From positions 1 to 41,902 of the IMG/VR virus record IMGVR_UViG_3300047494_000050: a DNA stretch of 41,902 bases, one strand, 5' to 3'. Source of the DNA: a virus. Shown piece after piece: positions 20,388-40,755 of this stretch (the first letter of the stretch is position 1; each line of letters begins with the position of its first letter). Both the position numbers and the translations under genes were made by a program. The notes beneath the pieces are model-generated. The model saw only the letters and a list, made by a program, of their open reading frames with translations. It was not told the DNA's origin and did no database searches.

Positions 20388-20426
20388 ATCTGTTTCTTTC
20401 CTTGTGTTTTTGGACGGCTGTCTATC

Positions 20427-20455
20427 AATTAAGGACAGCCCATTGTTACGCTAAC
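20427..20455 (-). promoter_or_regulatory. Copy A of the GCGTAACA/CTTAAT motif, promoter candidate
   Basis: On the minus strand GTTAGCGTAACAA (20455-20443) is followed after about ten bases by CTTAATT. It lies just downstream of the tail tube terminator and about 40 nt upstream of the next start codon, the most promoter-like placement of the six copies. GGCTGTC and GACAGCC flank the AT-rich half as an inverted repeat. Confidence 0.5.
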
Positions 20456-20469
20456 GGGAAATAAGAAAG

Positions 20470-20497
20470 AAGCCCCCGGCCTTGCGGCCGAGGGCTT
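20470..20497 (-). terminator. Strong intrinsic terminator after the tail tube gene
   Basis: A 12-bp stem (20470-20481 with 20486-20497, one G-T wobble) closes a four-base loop, GCAA on the minus strand. It is followed on the minus strand by CTTTCTTATTT. On the plus strand the stem is followed by TTTT, so it may work in both directions. It lies 17 nt past the tail tube stop codon. Confidence 0.9.
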
Positions 20498-20513
20498 TTA
20501 TGCTTCCGAATTA

Positions 20514-24549: not shown

Positions 24550-25062
24550 TCACGGTCGAACTTTAGTACCAAATCCCTGCGCTAGTGCGCGGGCTCGGCG
24601 TGCCTCTCTGGAGTTTCCCTCGCCGCCTTTATGCGGCCAACTCCCGTTAGCGTATTGACCATGCGTGAACGCATGGTGGTCAGTACCTCGCGGCATATTA
24701 ACGCCGCGAGATTTGCGCGTTGCAGTTCGCTTTGCGATGGATTCGGATGAGTGTTTGAACACCGCTCTGTCGGCTTCCATGAGGTTGTATTCCGGCGTTA
24801 GCTCGGATACCCAAAATCGTTCTCTTTCGAGGAGTTCTTCGGGCGAACAAAGCTCGATAACCCCAAAACGAAACGATTCCTCACCATGCTTGTTCCAAGC
24901 GTGCTGGAGGTAACGGGAGTGGTGCTTATTTTTTCGGAGTTGCCACAGGTGGTCATACTGCCTTCGGTCCATCCGAACGGACGAGCCGACGTACATCCGG
25001 CAATTTTCGATATTGTAAATAGCGTAAATGCCCGACGCCGCGGGCTGCTTATCTTCTCTCAT
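24550..25062 (-). CDS. GIY-YIG homing endonuclease
   Basis: The protein has 170 residues. The core is SGIYAIYNIE (residues 10-19) and RMYVGSS (about 22-28), with a conserved Arg (DRRQYDHLW) and a glutamate in LLERERFWVSEL. A NUMOD3-like segment (FKHSSESIAKRTATRKSRG) is probably the DNA-binding part. It resembles the GIY-YIG gene before the tape measure, and the two are probably paralogues. It begins eight bases after a GCGTAACA/CTTAAC motif and sits between two head-tail joining genes, so it is most likely a mobile insertion. Confidence 0.9.
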   Translation of the reverse strand: MREDKQPAASGIYAIYNIENCRMYVGSSVRMDRRQYDHLWQLRKNKHHSRYLQHAWNKHGEESFRFGVIELCSPEELLERERFWVSELTPEYNLMEADRAVFKHSSESIAKRTATRKSRGVNMPRGTDHHAFTHGQYANGSWPHKGGEGNSREARRARALAQGFGTKVRP

Positions 25063-26787: not shown

Positions 26788-28002
26788 CTACTGGACTTTG
26801 ACGATGAGGAAGTTCCGGAGGCAGTAGCCCGGACGCGCGAGCGCGACCTGCTTGCTGCGGCTGCGGTAGTTATAGAAACCATCCGCAGGCGTCTCCAGCG
26901 TTCCGTCCATCGGGTTGCCGCTCTCGAGTTCGAGGCGGTCCCACATCAGCGATGCGGGCTCGTCGCAGAACAGGATGCAATAACCGGCGGGAAGCCAGTT
27001 CTGCTTCTTCACGTTCATAACGAGGCCGAACCAGTTGATGGTGATAGCTCCTCGGAAGTCTTCCTTCTGGAACTCCGACCACATCTCTTCGGGCACGGCC
27101 TTCGCGGGGCTGTTGTTCAGACCCGAGCCCGTCACCAAAGCGACCGGGGTCGCCATGTTCTGGAGCGATTCCCAGACCGGTGCATCGCCCGAGACTGCTG
27201 CCTGCGGGATATACATGGTCTTGAAGTTGCGCCCGATTTGGATGCTGTGGGTGTTAATCGTCTGGACAACCTTCTTGGTGAGGCCGCCTTCCGAAGTGAG
27301 GTCATAGATGTTGACCGACGGGTAACCCGCCGGGATAACACCCGGATTCAGAACGTAAACGCTCTGACCCGCGAACGAACCACCGTTCGCGAAGTAGTTC
27401 ACGATGGAGGCCGCCGGGTCGTCCGTGACAACCGAAACCGAAGACGGATTCGCGAACACGGTGTTGAGCGCCATATTCGTGATACCGATTTCGAGGTAAC
27501 GGTCGAGGTTTTCGAGCGCATCCTTGCGCTCTTGCAACTTCGCCATATCGTACAGCGAGTTGAGGTTCGGCGTCATAACGCGCTCGGTCGTGATGGTCGT
27601 CGGCGCAACTTGCACGACGGTTTGATTCGTCGCGTAGTAATTCGTCGGACCCACGCCGAGGATACCCGCCTGCAAGACGTTGACCGGGTTGGTCGTCTTG
27701 GTGCGGAAGATGGCGATGCTGCCGAGCGGCCAGTTACGCATTTCCATAAAGTCGAGCGCGGGTGAATCGCGATAGACGTTAAGGACTTCGTAATCCGCTT
27801 CGACGGACTGAATCTCTGCAACACCAGCGGCGCTGGCGAGCATACGATTCATAAAACCGACGCTCTTCGCTACATCCTCTTGCGTGCGAGCGGCCGATTT
27901 ACCGGCAACTTCGCGAGCGAATGCGTTGAAACGCGCCTTGTCGAGAACTAACTGACCGTCCGGGCTCGACCCGGGAATCAGGAACTTTGATACTGCGGAC
28001 AT
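26788..28002 (-). CDS. Major capsid protein
   Basis: The protein has 404 residues. It has a helical N-terminal arm (residues 1-65), a beta-rich P-loop-like region (TTNPVNVLQAGILGVGPTNYY) and a long central helix (LYDMAKLQERKDALENLDRYLEIGI). This is consistent with an HK97-type shell protein. It follows the protease/scaffold gene, as usual, and has its own terminator. The ATG at 28000-28002 was preferred over one 63 nt upstream that would overlap the previous gene. The Shine-Dalgarno GGAG is 15 nt away, with a small hairpin in the spacer. Confidence 0.88.
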   Translation of the reverse strand: MSAVSKFLIPGSSPDGQLVLDKARFNAFAREVAGKSAARTQEDVAKSVGFMNRMLASAAGVAEIQSVEADYEVLNVYRDSPALDFMEMRNWPLGSIAIFRTKTTNPVNVLQAGILGVGPTNYYATNQTVVQVAPTTITTERVMTPNLNSLYDMAKLQERKDALENLDRYLEIGITNMALNTVFANPSSVSVVTDDPAASIVNYFANGGSFAGQSVYVLNPGVIPAGYPSVNIYDLTSEGGLTKKVVQTINTHSIQIGRNFKTMYIPQAAVSGDAPVWESLQNMATPVALVTGSGLNNSPAKAVPEEMWSEFQKEDFRGAITINWFGLVMNVKKQNWLPAGYCILFCDEPASLMWDRLELESGNPMDGTLETPADGFYNYRSRSKQVALARPGYCLRNFLIVKVQ

Positions 28003-28021
28003 TGTTTCTAACAATCGCTCC

Positions 28022-28537
28022 TTAGATGATTTGGAAGATGCCGAGCGGAATCGTGCGCTGGACAACTTGGCCCTTGAAGAGTAGGCGCTTCACGTCGCCG
28101 CCCTGGGCAACGCGCGGCTGACCGCTCGCGATACCGCAAGCCGTATCGAGGGCAACACCGCCGCCGAACGAGATTGCGCCCGTGGCGGAACCGGTGACGT
28201 ATTGGTCCGTCGCGACCTGGCATCCCGAGAGCGAGAGCAGAACCGAGGCGATTTGCCCTGCGGCAACCGACTCGTCGTAGACAGACGAGAGAACTTCCAG
28301 AACGGTCGGACCGCTCGTGGTGACCGGCTGCAAGAGCCAGCCCGTTTCACGCTGAATGCCACCGGTCGTAACCGACCCGGGAACTAGCGTACCGAGAGAG
28401 TTGCCGTAGGGGGACGGCGTGAGCGGCGACGCATCCGAGGTCTGCGCGACAAGCGCGAGACCCGAGAACGCAGCAGCGGCGATTTTGTAAACGCCCGTGA
28501 TAGAGCGGCCCTCGAAACCCTGATAGGGGGAAAGCAT
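28022..28537 (-). CDS. Possible capsid decoration protein
   Basis: The protein has 171 residues, rich in Gly, Ser, Thr and Val with few charges. Its sequence is beta-sandwich-like (VATDQYVTGSATGAISFGGGVAL). It lies between the scaffold and the major capsid gene, the place of lambda gpD-type decoration proteins or head fibres. An AAGGAGA site lies 11 nt before the ATG at 28535-28537. The function is inferred from position and composition. Confidence 0.65.
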   Translation of the reverse strand: MLSPYQGFEGRSITGVYKIAAAAFSGLALVAQTSDASPLTPSPYGNSLGTLVPGSVTTGGIQRETGWLLQPVTTSGPTVLEVLSSVYDESVAAGQIASVLLSLSGCQVATDQYVTGSATGAISFGGGVALDTACGIASGQPRVAQGGDVKRLLFKGQVVQRTIPLGIFQII

Positions 28538-36573: not shown

Positions 36574-36728
36574 CTTGGGTCAGTTACGAAGTCCGTAAAG
36601 GACTTCTTGAGTTCCCAGAAATCCGTAAAGTTGCCGTAGGATTCGTCCTGCTCGCGGTCCTGCAAAGTACCGCGAATCTCTTCCAGGATGCGGCCGAGGG
36701 CGAGCATGACCGATGCCTGTGTCAGCAC
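36570..36728 (-). CDS. Small helical protein of unknown function
   Basis: The protein has 52 residues from a GTG at 36726-36728 that overlaps the stop of the SLOG gene (TAGTG). The frame stays open further upstream, but that part is antisense-like Arg/Pro/Gly sequence opposite real codons. The protein has a helix (VMLALGRILEEIRGTLQDREQDE) and an aromatic tail (YGNFTDFWELKKSFTDF). Coupling to the SLOG gene suggests joint expression. Function is unknown. Confidence 0.55.
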   Translation of the reverse strand: MLTQASVMLALGRILEEIRGTLQDREQDESYGNFTDFWELKKSFTDFVTDPS

Positions 36729-37330
36729 TAGCAATACGCCATCAGCCGGTGATATTTGTCCCCACAGTTCCAGACCGTGCGCCCGATGCCGCATGCCGGG
36801 CAGCGGTCCCATTCGGGGTCCAGGGGCCGACCCAGGTCCAAAATCTGGGCCTCCCGGCCAAGCTCCGAGGCGCATTGGATGGCGAACGCCGTACCGCCCT
36901 TGGGCTCGCCGCGACCGTCGAAAGACGGCGCTGCGATGACCCTTTCGGAGGCTTCGACGAGTTGGAAGTTGCGAGCCATGAAGCATTGGGTGGTGTCCGC
37001 GAGTGTGTCCCAATGTCCGTAGCCGTATCTCCCTGCCCTGCGTTTTGCCCACACTTCTGCTGCTTTTTCGAAGTGATTTGGATGCGGAAGATAAAGTTTA
37101 TTCCCCTCGTGGCATATCTGTTCGAACCGGAAATTCGCGAACGGGAGATATAATTCTACCCGTTCCGGATTAAGAGAACTCCCTCCGGCAGCGAACGCAT
37201 GGTCAGCGCCTTCGGCATTTCCGGTAACGATAACGTGCCGACGTTTCACTAAATACCGGCCGATATCGTAGAGGTTTTTTGCCTGGGCTTGCGAGAGAAC
37301 TCGTGTCCCTACGCACGCGATTTTCGCCAA
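36728..37330 (-). CDS. SLOG-fold (DprA/YpsA-like Rossmann) protein
   Basis: The protein has 200 residues from a TTG at 37328-37330, chosen because the upstream frame overlaps another gene. It begins with KIACVGTRVLS, then LYDIGRYLVKRRHVIVTGNAEGADHAFAAGG (residues 20-50), and has a KGGTAFAIQCASELG motif near 150. These are the glycine-rich loops of SLOG-superfamily nucleotide-binding proteins such as DprA and DUF2493. A C-terminal CPAC...C segment may bind metal. In phages such proteins may bind nucleotide signals or nucleic acid; the ligand is not known. Confidence 0.7.
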   Translation of the reverse strand: MAKIACVGTRVLSQAQAKNLYDIGRYLVKRRHVIVTGNAEGADHAFAAGGSSLNPERVELYLPFANFRFEQICHEGNKLYLPHPNHFEKAAEVWAKRRAGRYGYGHWDTLADTTQCFMARNFQLVEASERVIAAPSFDGRGEPKGGTAFAIQCASELGREAQILDLGRPLDPEWDRCPACGIGRTVWNCGDKYHRLMAYC

Positions 37331-37331
37331 C

Positions 37332-37757
37332 TTAGTGAAACTCGGATGCGATTTCGTACTTGAGTTGCTCAGCAGTTTTCGAGATAGCTTCGTTTTTCGC
37401 ACCCATGGTATTGACGAGGTTTTTGATAACCTCGTTGAATTTATCGCAGATTTCCGTATACTGCGGAAAATCCTTATATTTATCGTCGAAGAGTTTCCCG
37501 ATGGAGTTAATTGCCGTGGTGTGTTCATGCACCATGGCTTCGAGACGCCAAGCCGACGCCGCGAGCGTCAGGACAGCAGCGTGTCTGAATTCTTTCTTGG
37601 TTTTCGGGTTGACCGCAAGGTTCAACGCGAATTTGATGCCGTCCATTCCCGGAGGAAGGTGGCCGTGAGCGATGATATGATTGATAGTGCGAACGGCGTC
37701 CTGCATGGCTTGCGCGTGCGCGAGGGTCGTTTTCTTCTTGTTTTTGAATCCGAACAT
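37332..37757 (-). CDS. Helical protein of unknown function
   Basis: The protein has 141 residues, mostly helical, with a basic N terminus (MFGFKNKKKTTLAHAQ) and a coiled C-terminal half (FNEVIKNLVNTMGAKNEAISKTAEQLKYEIASEFH). The ATG at 37755-37757 overlaps the previous stop. An open frame of the same length exists on the opposite strand, but its composition and lack of coupling argue that the minus-strand reading is the gene. Function is unknown. Confidence 0.7.
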   Translation of the reverse strand: MFGFKNKKKTTLAHAQAMQDAVRTINHIIAHGHLPPGMDGIKFALNLAVNPKTKKEFRHAAVLTLAASAWRLEAMVHEHTTAINSIGKLFDDKYKDFPQYTEICDKFNEVIKNLVNTMGAKNEAISKTAEQLKYEIASEFH

Positions 37758-38331: not shown

Positions 38332-38639
38332 GCGGTAGGCGCTGCTTCCGGAATGGTTTCGAGTTCGACGTGCTTATCGCACGCCTCGATGGCGGCGACG
38401 GCGAGCGCGGCGACCTTGAGCATCTTTTGGCGGAACGTCGCGGCGGCGTTCTCACCCGGCGTCGCGCGGGTATACGGTTTGAGTGCATCCCCAAGGTACT
38501 GAATGATATACGAACCCCAATCATTCGGGCGGTTCAGCATATCGTAGCCCTGGGGCCACAAGCTCCGCTGGTAGTCGCGCTCGTCGGCCACCTCCGAGAG
38601 GACGGCCTCCGTCCGAGCGTCGGGAAGGGTATCGGGCAT
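38328..38639 (-). CDS. Small phage protein with ERxxQxxxWP motif
   Basis: The protein has 103 residues. It begins with EVADERDYQRSLWPQGYD and has a helix MLKVAALAVAAIEACDKH near the C terminus. The combination of ERxxQ...W followed by 'AAlAvAAIE' is seen in a widespread group of small phage proteins whose helices resemble MazG-type NTP pyrophosphatases; no catalytic EExxE/D set is visible here. Its ATG directly follows the previous stop. Function remains unproven. Confidence 0.65.
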   Translation of the reverse strand: MPDTLPDARTEAVLSEVADERDYQRSLWPQGYDMLNRPNDWGSYIIQYLGDALKPYTRATPGENAAATFRQKMLKVAALAVAAIEACDKHVELETIPEAAPTA

Positions 38640-38771
38640 CTATAGGTCCTCCACAAATACGGGGTCGAACCGCTCGATAAAGTTTTCGAGCAGCATACAG
38701 AATCGTTCCGGCCCGACCTCAAGGTGGACGTAATCCCCTTTAGGATGCTCTTCGTAGTTCGCGACCCGCAC
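38640..38771 (-). CDS. First gene of the leftward operon, start codon unclear
   Basis: The open frame ends with the TAG at 38640-38642, touching the next ATG. It encodes a protein-like sequence (VRVANYEEHPKGDYVHLEVG, then MLLENFIERFDPVFVEDL). A GTG at 38769-38771 gives 43 residues without a clear ribosome site. A well-placed AGGGGGAG and ATG (38800-38802) lie upstream but in another frame, which stops at 38740. The true gene may begin at an odd codon, or a base may be missing near 38800. Confidence 0.5.
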   Translation of the reverse strand: MRVANYEEHPKGDYVHLEVGPERFCMLLENFIERFDPVFVEDL

Positions 38772-38843
38772 TATCTGTGTCGGGGTCGCCTTGGCATACC
38801 ATAAACTCCCCCTTCAGGGGCGGCGATATCGGGCATGTGACGG

Positions 38844-38873
38844 ATGATACACCCCTCTCGGGTTGTACGTCAA
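38844..38873 (-). promoter_or_regulatory. Leftward sigma70-type promoter of the late/structural strand
   Basis: On the minus strand TTGACG (38873-38868) and TATCAT (38849-38844) are separated by 18 bases; the -10 box matches five of six consensus bases. Transcription would start near 38837 and enter the first leftward gene. The spacer contains a copy of the 16-bp operator-like repeat. Confidence 0.7.
38853..38868 (-). promoter_or_regulatory. Operator-like 16-bp repeat, copy 1
   Basis: The minus strand reads GTACAACCCGAGAGGG. It differs from copy 3 at three of 16 positions and lies in the spacer of the leftward promoter, in the same orientation relative to that promoter as copy 3 has to its own. 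Confidence 0.6.
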
Positions 38874-38884
38874 CCCCCCCCCCC
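38874..38884. repeat. Run of 11 C between two divergent -35 boxes
   Basis: CGTCAA (leftward -35, reversed) and TTGACA (rightward -35) are separated only by this C11 tract. Homopolymers of this length slip easily, so length variation between genomes or an assembly error is possible. Changes would alter the distance between two bound polymerases without changing either promoter's own spacing. Confidence 0.8.
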
Positions 38885-38912
38885 TTGACATAACCTTTTT
38901 GGGTCGTACTAT
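38885..38912 (+). promoter_or_regulatory. Rightward promoter P1
   Basis: TTGACA (38885-38890, perfect consensus) is followed after 16 bases by TACTAT (38907-38912), or after 19 by TATAGT. The start site would fall at about 38919, the A of the next ATG, giving a leaderless mRNA. Operator-like copy 2 fills the spacer. Confidence 0.7.
38894..38909 (-). promoter_or_regulatory. Operator-like 16-bp repeat, copy 2
   Basis: The minus strand reads GTACGACCCAAAAAGG, differing from copy 3 at two of 16 positions. It lies in the spacer of rightward promoter P1, in inverted orientation compared with the other two promoter-operator pairs. Confidence 0.6.
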
Positions 38913-38918
38913 AGTGAC

Positions 38919-39098
38919 ATGGGATATAATTCACCTCCGCCGAACACCACGGTCGCCCAACTCATCGTGAAGCTCCAGGCGCTTCCTCAGAACGCATATG
39001 TGCGTATCGAACGCCCCAACGGATGGGATAACCCCATCCCGACGCTCGTCTCGGGGCAGAGCTACGAGTTCCCCGAGGGCACCCTCGTAAGTTTATAG
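38919..39098 (+). CDS. Small protein of unknown function, probably leaderless
   Basis: The protein has 59 residues. After a Pro-rich start it reads TVAQLIVKLQALPQNAYVRIER, resembling small phage and bacterial proteins that begin with a 'TVxELIxxLxxLPxDAxVxI' helix-strand unit. The ATG coincides with the predicted start point of promoter P1, and no ribosome site precedes it. The transcript is therefore probably leaderless, as for lambda cI from PRM. It is the first rightward gene and is followed by a second promoter. Function is unknown. Confidence 0.65.
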   Translation: MGYNSPPPNTTVAQLIVKLQALPQNAYVRIERPNGWDNPIPTLVSGQSYEFPEGTLVSL

Positions 39099-39105
39099 GA
39101 ACCAC

Positions 39106-39134
39106 TTGACGAGTACGACCCAATAGGGTAGTAT
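39106..39134 (+). promoter_or_regulatory. Rightward promoter P2
   Basis: TTGACG (39106-39111) and TAGTAT (39129-39134) are separated by exactly 17 bases. The start site would be near 39141, giving a leader of about 325 nt before the gene at 39466. Operator-like copy 3 fills the spacer. Confidence 0.65.
39113..39128 (+). promoter_or_regulatory. Operator-like 16-bp repeat, copy 3
   Basis: GTACGACCCAATAGGG lies between the -35 and -10 boxes of P2. It is the closest copy to the consensus GTACRACCCRADARGG derived from the three sites. Confidence 0.6.
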
Positions 39135-39207
39135 TGTAGCAGGGAGTCGCGCCAACGAAAGAAGGCAACCCGGGAGCCAACTCGACGGAGAGGACTTCAA
39201 CGGGGCG

Positions 39208-39324
39208 ATGTGGGGCCGTGACGACGTTATACTGAAACCACCGGATGATTCACGCCGGAGGCTCCCTGACAATATACTTGGGTCCGACCATGTGGGGGTC
39301 GCACCCCGTACCGCTCGAGGGTAG
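39208..39324 (+). CDS. Possible very small protein in the P2 leader
   Basis: This is a 38-residue open frame (MWGRDDVILKPPDDSRRRLP ...) from an ATG at 39208 to a TAG at 39322. GGAGAGGA lies about 13 nt upstream, a longer than usual gap. Charge pattern and codons are protein-like, but several frames are open in this GC-rich leader, so it could be chance. If translated, it could also act as a leader peptide for the switch downstream. Confidence 0.35.
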   Translation: MWGRDDVILKPPDDSRRRLPDNILGSDHVGVAPRTARG

Positions 39325-39343
39325 CTACCTTGGGAAACACGGT

Positions 39344-39457
39344 CTTCCGCATACGGAAGTTTAGCCCGCCTTCGAGCGCGCACGTTGGTATCCGAGGCCC
39401 AGGAGGTCGCGCCTCCTGGGTACCCGGCCCACAAAACGGTTTATTTCATCCCAGGAG
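39344..39457 (+). promoter_or_regulatory. Leader RNA with mutually exclusive hairpins controlling the RBS of the next gene
   Basis: A first hairpin pairs CTTCCG with CGGAAG (39344-39359). A second is a perfect 9-bp stem: CCCAGGAGG (39398-39406) with CCTCCTGGG (39412-39420). The right arm is equally complementary to CCCAGGAG at 39450-39457, which contains the AGGAG ribosome site of the gene at 39466. Either the upstream hairpin forms and the site is free, or the right arm pairs downstream and hides it. A short TTG-initiated frame (39385-39462) also crosses the element and stops just before the ATG. Confidence 0.6.
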
Positions 39458-39465
39458 CTTAAGCG

Positions 39466-39624
39466 ATGACCTGTAGCGAGAAAGTATCTTTTGAGGGCAT
39501 CGTTTATCAATGCTCCAAGGATGCAGGTGACCACGATAAACACATGGTTTCGGTCGCCGGACAGTTTATTGAGTGGATGACACCGGAGACGATTTCGAAG
39601 CGTCGGAATCGGCCCGGCCAATGA
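39466..39624 (+). CDS. Small protein of unknown function under leader control
   Basis: The protein has 52 residues: MTCSEKVSFEGIVYQCSKDA, then DHDKHMVSVAGQFIEW and a basic end. Two Cys and a DHDKH cluster could bind metal. The pattern 'C...F.G..Y.C....DHD.H' suggests a small zinc module. AGGAG lies eight bases before the ATG and is part of the alternative hairpin. The stop overlaps the next ATG (ATGA). Function is unknown. Confidence 0.7.
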   Translation: MTCSEKVSFEGIVYQCSKDAGDHDKHMVSVAGQFIEWMTPETISKRRNRPGQ

Positions 39625-39824
39625 TTACGGCTTCGGAAAAAGGCGCGCTGATTCGTGAATACGAGGAAGCTCTTGCTGCGATGAATCTCAATAATTTCTC
39701 GGTGCTTTCATGGCCGTGGGCATCTTCGTCGCCTGCGGTCTACGAACGCGCGCGGCGATGTGCTGACGCCGTGCGTGTAGCACGGGCGAAGCTCGCGGAT
39801 GCGGGGTTACTACCAAGTGTTTAA
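39621..39824 (+). CDS. Small helical protein of unknown function
   Basis: The protein has 67 residues from the ATG at 39621, which overlaps the previous stop (ATGA); an in-frame upstream ATG would overlap more. Helices are likely at both ends (KGALIREYEEALAAMNL; AVYERARRCADAVRVARAKLADAGL) around an aromatic turn (FSVLSWPWASS). It resembles small helical-hairpin proteins. Function is unknown. Confidence 0.65.
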   Translation: MITASEKGALIREYEEALAAMNLNNFSVLSWPWASSSPAVYERARRCADAVRVARAKLADAGLLPSV

Positions 39825-39846
39825 TACGAAAGCCTATTCTACGACG

Positions 39847-40017
39847 ATGAGCGATGTCGAAACGGCGGCCTATAATTGGTGGTTCGGCCGTCGCCCCATC
39901 TACTACTCCGAAGAACAACATCTCGAGAATCCGACGATAAATACGAGCGGTCTCACCGAGATAGAACTCGCGCGCTCGGTCGCGATGCTCGTCGAGAGAA
40001 TCAGACTGAATGAGTAA
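39847..40017 (+). CDS. Small protein of unknown function
   Basis: The protein has 56 residues, aromatic near the N terminus (AAYNWWFGRRPIYYSEEQH), with a C-terminal helix (LTEIELARSVAMLVERIRLNE). The ATG at 39847 was chosen; another 48 nt upstream would overlap the previous gene. The ribosome site is weak for both. The end overlaps the next start by eight bases. Function is unknown. Confidence 0.6.
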   Translation: MSDVETAAYNWWFGRRPIYYSEEQHLENPTINTSGLTEIELARSVAMLVERIRLNE

Positions 40018-40114
40018 GCACGCATACACCGCCGTCGATTACGGCATCATCGCGGCGACCGTTTTCACGGCGCTCTGTCTTATTATCCGGTATTTATTGG
40101 AGCACCATAAATGA
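40010..40114 (+). CDS. Tiny single-pass membrane protein
   Basis: The protein has 34 residues. One hydrophobic stretch (YGIIAATVFTALCLIIRYLL, residues 11-30) is flanked by a short polar N terminus and EHHK. It overlaps genes on both sides (eight bases upstream, ATGA downstream), which supports it as a real gene despite its size. Likely an inner-membrane protein; role unknown. Confidence 0.55.
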   Translation: MSKHAYTAVDYGIIAATVFTALCLIIRYLLEHHK

Positions 40115-40191
40115 GCAACTTATTCGCGGACATCATCGCGGCAATCCGACTCTTCTTCGCGTTCATCTTCAAAAAGACCGGCGGCGAGTAG
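40111..40191 (+). CDS. Tiny membrane-associated protein
   Basis: The protein has 26 residues: MSNLFADIIAAIRLFFAFIF followed by KKTGGE. It is hydrophobic with a basic end, like a short membrane helix or amphipathic peptide. It overlaps the previous gene (ATGA), and its TAG stop overlaps the next GTG start. Two consecutive tiny membrane proteins may act together. Confidence 0.5.
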   Translation: MSNLFADIIAAIRLFFAFIFKKTGGE

Positions 40192-40478
40192 TGATTCGCG
40201 TCGTCATTGAATTGTGGCCGCTCGGTAACGAGCGTCGCAAGTCAACGCTTGGAGAAGTCTTCATCATAAACGATGGTACGGGAACCCACACCGTTGGTAA
40301 CTACACCTATCGCGTTATGAAGGGGAAGGGCTCGCCTCACGTTTACAAGGAAGGCGTCGTTCGTGGATTCCCTCGCGCGAAACTACCTGCATACGACCTT
40401 CTCTTATCCGTTCTCCTGAACGTCTTCGGCCATCGGAATCCTCGAGTGAAAGAAGCTCTTAAAGCGTATGAAACGTAG
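40191..40478 (+). CDS. Small protein of unknown function
   Basis: The protein has 95 residues from a GTG at 40191 that overlaps the previous stop (TAGTG). It has a beta-rich N-terminal half (VVIELWPLGNERRKSTLGEVFIIND, TVGNYTYRVMKG), then a helix (AYDLLLSVLLNVFG) and a charged end. The first strand and the 'ELWPxGxxxxxxxLGxxxIxNDGTG' pattern look like small phage proteins found near replication or packaging genes. No function can be named. Confidence 0.68.
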   Translation: MIRVVIELWPLGNERRKSTLGEVFIINDGTGTHTVGNYTYRVMKGKGSPHVYKEGVVRGFPRAKLPAYDLLLSVLLNVFGHRNPRVKEALKAYET

Positions 40479-40755
40479 CTCGTTCTTCGAGAAGCTCGCG
40501 GTGCTTCCAGGGCTCGCCTTCTTAGCGCCGGGTCTCGGCGCGCTCGCGCCGACCCTTGCTCCGCTAGAGACATCTTTCGCGACTATCGCTCCGGAAGACG
40601 AGGATATCGCCCTTATATCCGGACCTATCGACGAAGAAGGCGCAATAAACTTAATGCGCTCCGGATATACTCGGTGGGCCACGATTCATCCAGGTGGAGA
40701 GATGAGCGTTATTCGTCCGCTTACGGATGTTATCGCAGCCGGTGGGATGCCATGA
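40468..40755 (+). CDS. Protein with signal-like N terminus
   Basis: The protein has 95 residues. The first 35 residues are basic then hydrophobic (MKRSSFFEKLAVLPGLAFLAPGLGAL). This resembles a signal peptide or membrane anchor; the basic KR start is not a clear twin-arginine motif. The rest is polar (EDEDIALISGPIDEEGAINLMRSGYTRWATIHPGGEM). It overlaps neighbours by 11 and four bases. It may be membrane-tethered or exported. Function is unknown. Confidence 0.6.
   Translation: MKRSSFFEKLAVLPGLAFLAPGLGALAPTLAPLETSFATIAPEDEDIALISGPIDEEGAINLMRSGYTRWATIHPGGEMSVIRPLTDVIAAGGMP

Follow-up and report, generated by a model that had tools for sequence, protein, structure and literature searches.

The window, a 41,902-base stretch of DNA, is an IMG/VR virus record. 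Structural genes in it run leftward; the small genes that begin at position 38919 form a rightward block. Among the genes considered, the longest noncoding gap of the window measures 367 nt (39099-39465); it is flanked by a 59-amino-acid (aa) gene upstream (38919-39098) and a 52-aa gene downstream (39466-39624, plus strand). The 52-aa open reading frame, the first gene after the leader described below, has Cys and His residues in its N-terminal part. Its codon score is near 0, an ambiguous value, and its PHROG and Pfam matches are all weak and fall under the cut-off. Elsewhere in the window, a GIY-YIG domain gene (24550-25062, minus strand; Pfam E=3.6e-9) sits amid the structural genes and possibly encodes a homing endonuclease, and a DprA-like recombination mediator is encoded at 36728-37528 on the minus strand (PHROG 768, E=1.8e-18).

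The phage is uncultivated and has no close relatives in the collections searched. Its terminase large subunit (TerL) shares only ~25% identity with its counterparts in distant phages, among them Bacillus phage Stills and Microcystis phage MaeS, and an alignment built on TerL brought in only remote phages of the Stills type. Searches for homologues in IMG/VR with TerL, the portal, the tape measure, the putative capsid and an early 95-aa protein returned none, as did searches of the genome_contigs collection with TerL and capsid and of the phages collection with capsid. At the DNA level, the region showed no similarity to any record when compared with phages and plasmids.

Within the gap, a sigma-70-like promoter site, TTGACG-17-TAGTAT, occupies 39106-39134 on the plus strand with 9/12 consensus matches, and an RNA start near 39141 is predicted from this match rather than from a mapped start. 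Promoter-like sites number 6 per 2 kb, compared with 1.0 in shuffles. Inside the spacer of the 39106-39134 site lies an operator-like repeat, GTACGACCCAATAGGGT (39113-39129, plus strand), of which further copies are present on the minus strand (38868-38852 and 38909-38893) at the promoter-like sites 38885 and 38873. The three copies are near-identical, follow the pattern GTACRACCC-N4/5-GGG, and are each positioned in or beside the spacer or -35 edge of one promoter-like site. The repeats are likely repressor sites governing the divergent early region. A promoter-like TTGACA-16-TACTAT (38885-38919, plus strand) ends 6 bases upstream of the ATG of the 59-aa gene (38919); therefore, the transcript of that gene may be leaderless.

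A transcript beginning near 39141 would possess a leader of ~325 nt (39141-39465, plus strand) that lacks coding signal in all six frames. The frames of 39141-39462 score -0.26 to -0.36 per codon, i.e., at the off-frame level, compared with +0.29 for genes. A 38-aa ATG frame at 39208 and the minus-strand frames were considered as leader genes and rejected as noncoding by codon score. With a fold z of -2.15 and unremarkable 120-nt windows, the leader has a degree of structure that is ordinary for this genome. The Rfam 15 covariance models gave 0 matches in the window at the gathering score, and nothing relevant was retrieved for 38600-40600 up to E=5.

Toward the 3' end of this leader, the initial annotation had described three short arms capable of two competing pairings, and a letter-by-letter check found all three in place on the plus strand. 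Arm 1, CCCAGGAGG (39398-39406), holds a perfect AGGAGG resembling a Shine-Dalgarno (SD) sequence, with no start codon at SD distance downstream. After a five-base gap follows arm 2, CCTCCTGGG (39412-39420), which holds an anti-SD-like CCTCCT, and further downstream arm 3, CCCAGGAG (39450-39457), holds the SD itself, AGGAG (39453-39457), with the ATG at 39466 placed, as claimed, 8 bases past it. Arms 1 and 2 form hairpin A (39397-39421), CCCAGGAGG/CCTCCTGGG, an 11-bp stem of 39397-39407/39411-39421 with 9 Watson-Crick and 2 G-U pairs and a predicted energy of -21.6 kcal/mol. The 8-bp alternative, pairing CTCCTGGG (39413-39420) with CCCAGGAG (39450-39457), likewise exists as described. Since both pairings use arm 2, they exclude each other, and one of them covers the SD. 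The SD-covering hairpin alone is predicted at -16.1 kcal/mol. Absent from the initial annotation are two extensions of its helix, GTCGC 39406-39410/GCGAT 39463-39467 and CAGG 39400-39403/CCTG 39470-39473, by which a 17-bp helix would close over the SD and most of the AUG and run on into part of codons 2-3. A weak initiation hairpin, CAGG/CCTG (39452-39473, plus strand), holds the SD and the ATG and coexists with hairpin A in the MFE structures.

How readily such an arrangement arises by chance was assessed from several counts. In dinucleotide shuffles of 39380-39465, none of 20,000 gave a 9-bp hairpin whose 3' arm matched the SD segment over 8 bp, and 2 of 20,000 did so when the lengths were relaxed to 8+7 bp. 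Arm 2 matches the real SD segments of other starts over at least 8 nt in 3 of 667 cases (3 of the 202 of the AGGAG type), and random pairs of a hairpin and an SD segment match over at least 8 nt at ~0.1%. The duplex between the hairpin strand and its own initiation region has a predicted energy of -31.2 kcal/mol, a value that 5 shuffled regions in 5,000 and 7 of the 679 other real SD regions (1%) also attain. A sample of 345 SD starts contained 21 with a hairpin of at least 8 bp in the preceding 100 nt, and complementarity to the SD among these reached 6 at best. On account of the shuffle, SD-segment and duplex-energy counts, the three-arm arrangement is genuine and has a rarity of roughly 0.1-1.5% before correction for its post hoc choice among many patterns; for a feature singled out afterwards, such rarity is not overwhelming.

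The competition between the two pairings was modelled by partition-function calculations, whose nearest-neighbour energies take no account of proteins, ribosomes, magnesium or kinetics. In transcripts starting at 39141, hairpin A has a predicted probability of 0.987-0.998 whichever of the 24 computed 3' ends (39458-39590) is used, and SD pairing does not exceed ~0.01; in the frames 39380-39500 and 39325-39500, the corresponding values are 0.98-0.99 and 0.001-0.006. Cut fragments behave differently, with SD pairing at 0.56-0.72 from 39390 to 39473-39491 and at ~0.5 from 39325 to 39473-39476. Set against the dominance of hairpin A in the leader, this near balance means that the outcome depends on flanking sequence, and the flanks within the predicted transcript favour hairpin A in the model. 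Temperature is predicted to alter little, as computed SD pairing never rises above ~6% between 10 and 55 C in 39380-39500 or 39325-39500. An RNA thermometer is disfavoured by the prediction that the probability of hairpin A in 39325-39500 never drops below 0.90 over this temperature range.

Blocking arm 1, and thereby freeing arm 2, carries a predicted cost of 10-12 kcal/mol. With arm 1 blocked, SD pairing would reach 0.63-0.73 in 39141-39500 and 39325-39500 but only 0.05 in 39380-39500, and it would be near zero in 39141-39640. The cost of opening the SD is predicted to move from 3.6-3.9 to 4.4-6.2 kcal/mol, a rise of ~0.5-2.4, and the predicted change in SD exposure is thus small. In the model, the SD is partly paired in both states; its partner in the state with hairpin A is CCUG of codons 2-3. 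For transcripts extending past ~39530, other pairings lift the SD-opening cost to 8-11 kcal/mol.

Hairpins with the same arms also occur in other phages. When 2.9 million viral contigs were scanned for CCCAGGAGG-N2-12-CCTCCTGGG-N10-40-AGGAG, six contigs matched, representing four distinct sequences (L017, L018/L022, L019/L020 and L021) with unrelated flanks, in which SD complementarity extends over 5-7 nt compared with 8 nt in this window. The hairpin of L017 is followed by a U tract and is an apparent intrinsic terminator, that of L018/L022 lies downstream of an apparent stop codon, and that of L019/L020 lies downstream of a sequence judged by eye to be tRNA-like. Thus, such hairpins precede ribosome sites in unrelated phages without sign of a switch. 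In L021 (290-390), two successive stable hairpins are followed by an ATG, and the CCTCCTG arm of the second is complementary over 7 nt to the SD CAGGAGG, which makes this contig a second candidate for the same architecture. A search for relatives of L021 and L017 returned nothing usable. The reversed arm orientation was found in 1 contig, and 4 vs 1 contigs are too few for any claim on orientation.

Taken as a whole, these observations are best explained by a stable leader hairpin that leaves the gene open to ribosomes by default, a reading that we hold with somewhat better than even confidence. Placed at the 3' end of the leader of an early gene, hairpin A would be stable, folding as it is transcribed, when the SD still lies ~30 nt ahead, and then staying folded; this order in the cell is inferred, and any hairpin-opening factor is presumed absent. 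By closing on its 5' arm, it would keep the anti-SD-like CCUCCU arm off the SD of the 39466 gene, and the default state would therefore be open to ribosomes. Weak local pairing of CAGG with CCUG around the ATG would limit this openness. The 8-bp SD pairing would be a latent alternative that arises in part because an AGGAG-bearing arm faces an AGGAG-type SD. Against a default-open hairpin stands the complementarity between the hairpin and the initiation region, which exceeds that of 99.9% of shuffles and of 99% of SD regions elsewhere, as do the best value of 6 among the 21 other upstream hairpins and the near balance of the two states in cut fragments. In a conditional switch, if arm 1 were occupied, arm 2 would pair with the SD, a helix would form over the AUG and translation of the 39466 gene would stop; arm 1 may be taken up by a 30S subunit attracted to its AGGAGG, by an RNA-binding protein of the phage or the host, or by a segment of RNA from further upstream. 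We consider this conditional switch unlikely, yet a genuine contender. The three exact arms are unexpected by chance (0/20,000), the 17-bp extended helix over the SD and AUG is predicted at -31.2 kcal/mol, SD pairing is predicted at 0.63-0.73 in two frames once arm 1 is blocked, and the element is preceded by the window's longest noncoding gap and by a predicted promoter under operator control. These points are offset by the dominance of hairpin A in full context and its opening cost of 10-12 kcal/mol, by the small predicted change of SD exposure, and by the loss of SD pairing on blocking arm 1 in 39380-39500 (0.05) and 39141-39640 (near zero); the element also comes without a trigger, an SD-bearing leader peptide, a known RNA family or a homologue found. 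The initial annotation had proposed ribosomes on the short frame 39385-39462 as a trigger, a suggestion that is poorly supported, as this frame starts with TTG, has no SD and scores -0.26 per codon, the off-frame level. Of the translational on/off switch that it had envisaged, the exclusive pairings, one of them over the SD, hold; the predicted competition is one-sided (hairpin A 0.987-0.998) and no Rfam family matches. A switch is thus possible but unproven, as hairpin A nearly always wins in the folding model and no related sequence was found that uses the alternative. A particular form of it, to which we assign only a slight probability, is a bistable leader in which the AGGAGG of arm 1 acts as a decoy SD that senses free 30S subunits, such that 30S binding would let the anti-SD arm shut the true SD and the AUG. 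Were this decoy reading true, translation of a small early gene would drop when ribosomes are plentiful.

Hairpin A may instead act on transcription or RNA fate, i.e., as a terminator lacking a U tract, a pause, or a 3'-end or processing barrier that separates a leader RNA (39141-~39421) from the mRNA. This we regard as rather improbable. It would fit the noncoding leader upstream of hairpin A, the presence of other strong intergenic hairpins after structural genes in the window, and the identical arms seen in L017, where they make an apparent intrinsic terminator, and in L019, downstream of a tRNA-like sequence. One of the other hairpins, GGGAGGGTGTGGACAGCACCCTCCC + TTTCTTTC (26774-26750, minus strand), lies directly past the putative capsid gene (26788-28065) and is likely a terminator; another, GCCCTCGGCCGCAAGGCCGGGGGC (20388-20513, minus strand), is strongly terminator-like with a T-rich tail, and the lowest folding z-scores of the window are found there. 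Unlike both of these, hairpin A has no T-rich stretch in its tail, GTACCCGGCCCACAAAACGG. Viewed as an intrinsic terminator, it is followed by GTACCCGGCCCAC without a U tract and is omitted from the list of the terminator scan, and termination here would sever the 39466 gene from its nearest promoter. Absence of function, with the hairpin and SD match arising as a coincidence among many patterns or as a remnant of a duplicated CCCAGGAG segment, appears very unlikely to us. SD and anti-SD words are common, 3/202 AGGAG-type starts match the arm over at least 8 nt, and whole-window dinucleotide shuffles average 1.35 perfect 9-bp hairpins. The actual window lists 8 such hairpins, 7 of them distinct, an excess that speaks against coincidence, as does the position of hairpin A in the longest noncoding gap, 45 nt ahead of a start codon. 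As for duplication, the two CCCAGGAG copies align over 8 nt, where the alignment stops, and nothing more. If the ordinary reading is true, the case illustrates that a phage hairpin between genes can mimic a switch through SD- and anti-SD-like words; identical arms precede AGGAG in four unrelated contigs, in one of which they form an apparent intrinsic terminator. A switch would be easy to test, as the arms are short and exact.

Translational attenuation of the erm type requires a translated leader peptide, which here would have to overlap arm 1, and employs alternating arms with the SD in the last arm. The phage leader resembles this design in its alternating arms, one of which is common to both pairings, in the SD of its last arm and in the short frame upstream. 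It differs in that the frame (39385-39462), which begins with TTG, has neither an SD nor a coding signal. Stalling on arm 1 here would turn the gene off, not on. In Helicobacter pylori, the aapA3 mRNA forms metastable SD-sequestering hairpins, and short SD-covering hairpins form before the long-distance fold (PMC6733600). The likeness lies in anti-SD segments near the SD that would compete during transcription and in SD-proximal hairpins that would decide translation. However, the first hairpin here would remove the anti-SD arm, whereas in aapA3 the first hairpins cover the SD, and no antisense RNA is known for the phage leader. The leader of lambda cIII, as described in PMC4166951, adopts two mutually exclusive mRNA conformations that are shifted by temperature, <37 C vs 45 C (Altuvia et al., 1989). 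Common to both leaders is a phage mRNA that can take up either of two exclusive conformations, with the ribosome binding site hidden in one. They differ in that cIII shifts with temperature as described there, whereas hairpin A with its flanks is computed to be dominant from 10 to 55 C. A switch of the cIII type would have both states populated, or shifted by a physiological condition; the predictions for the full leader place the SD-paired state at ~1% or less, with near balance in cut frames. If real, the switch would be a small three-arm translational control element comparable to lambda cIII. Lambda cIII and H. pylori aapA3 are the closest working analogues, with membership of the phage leader in either class standing as a candidate assignment.
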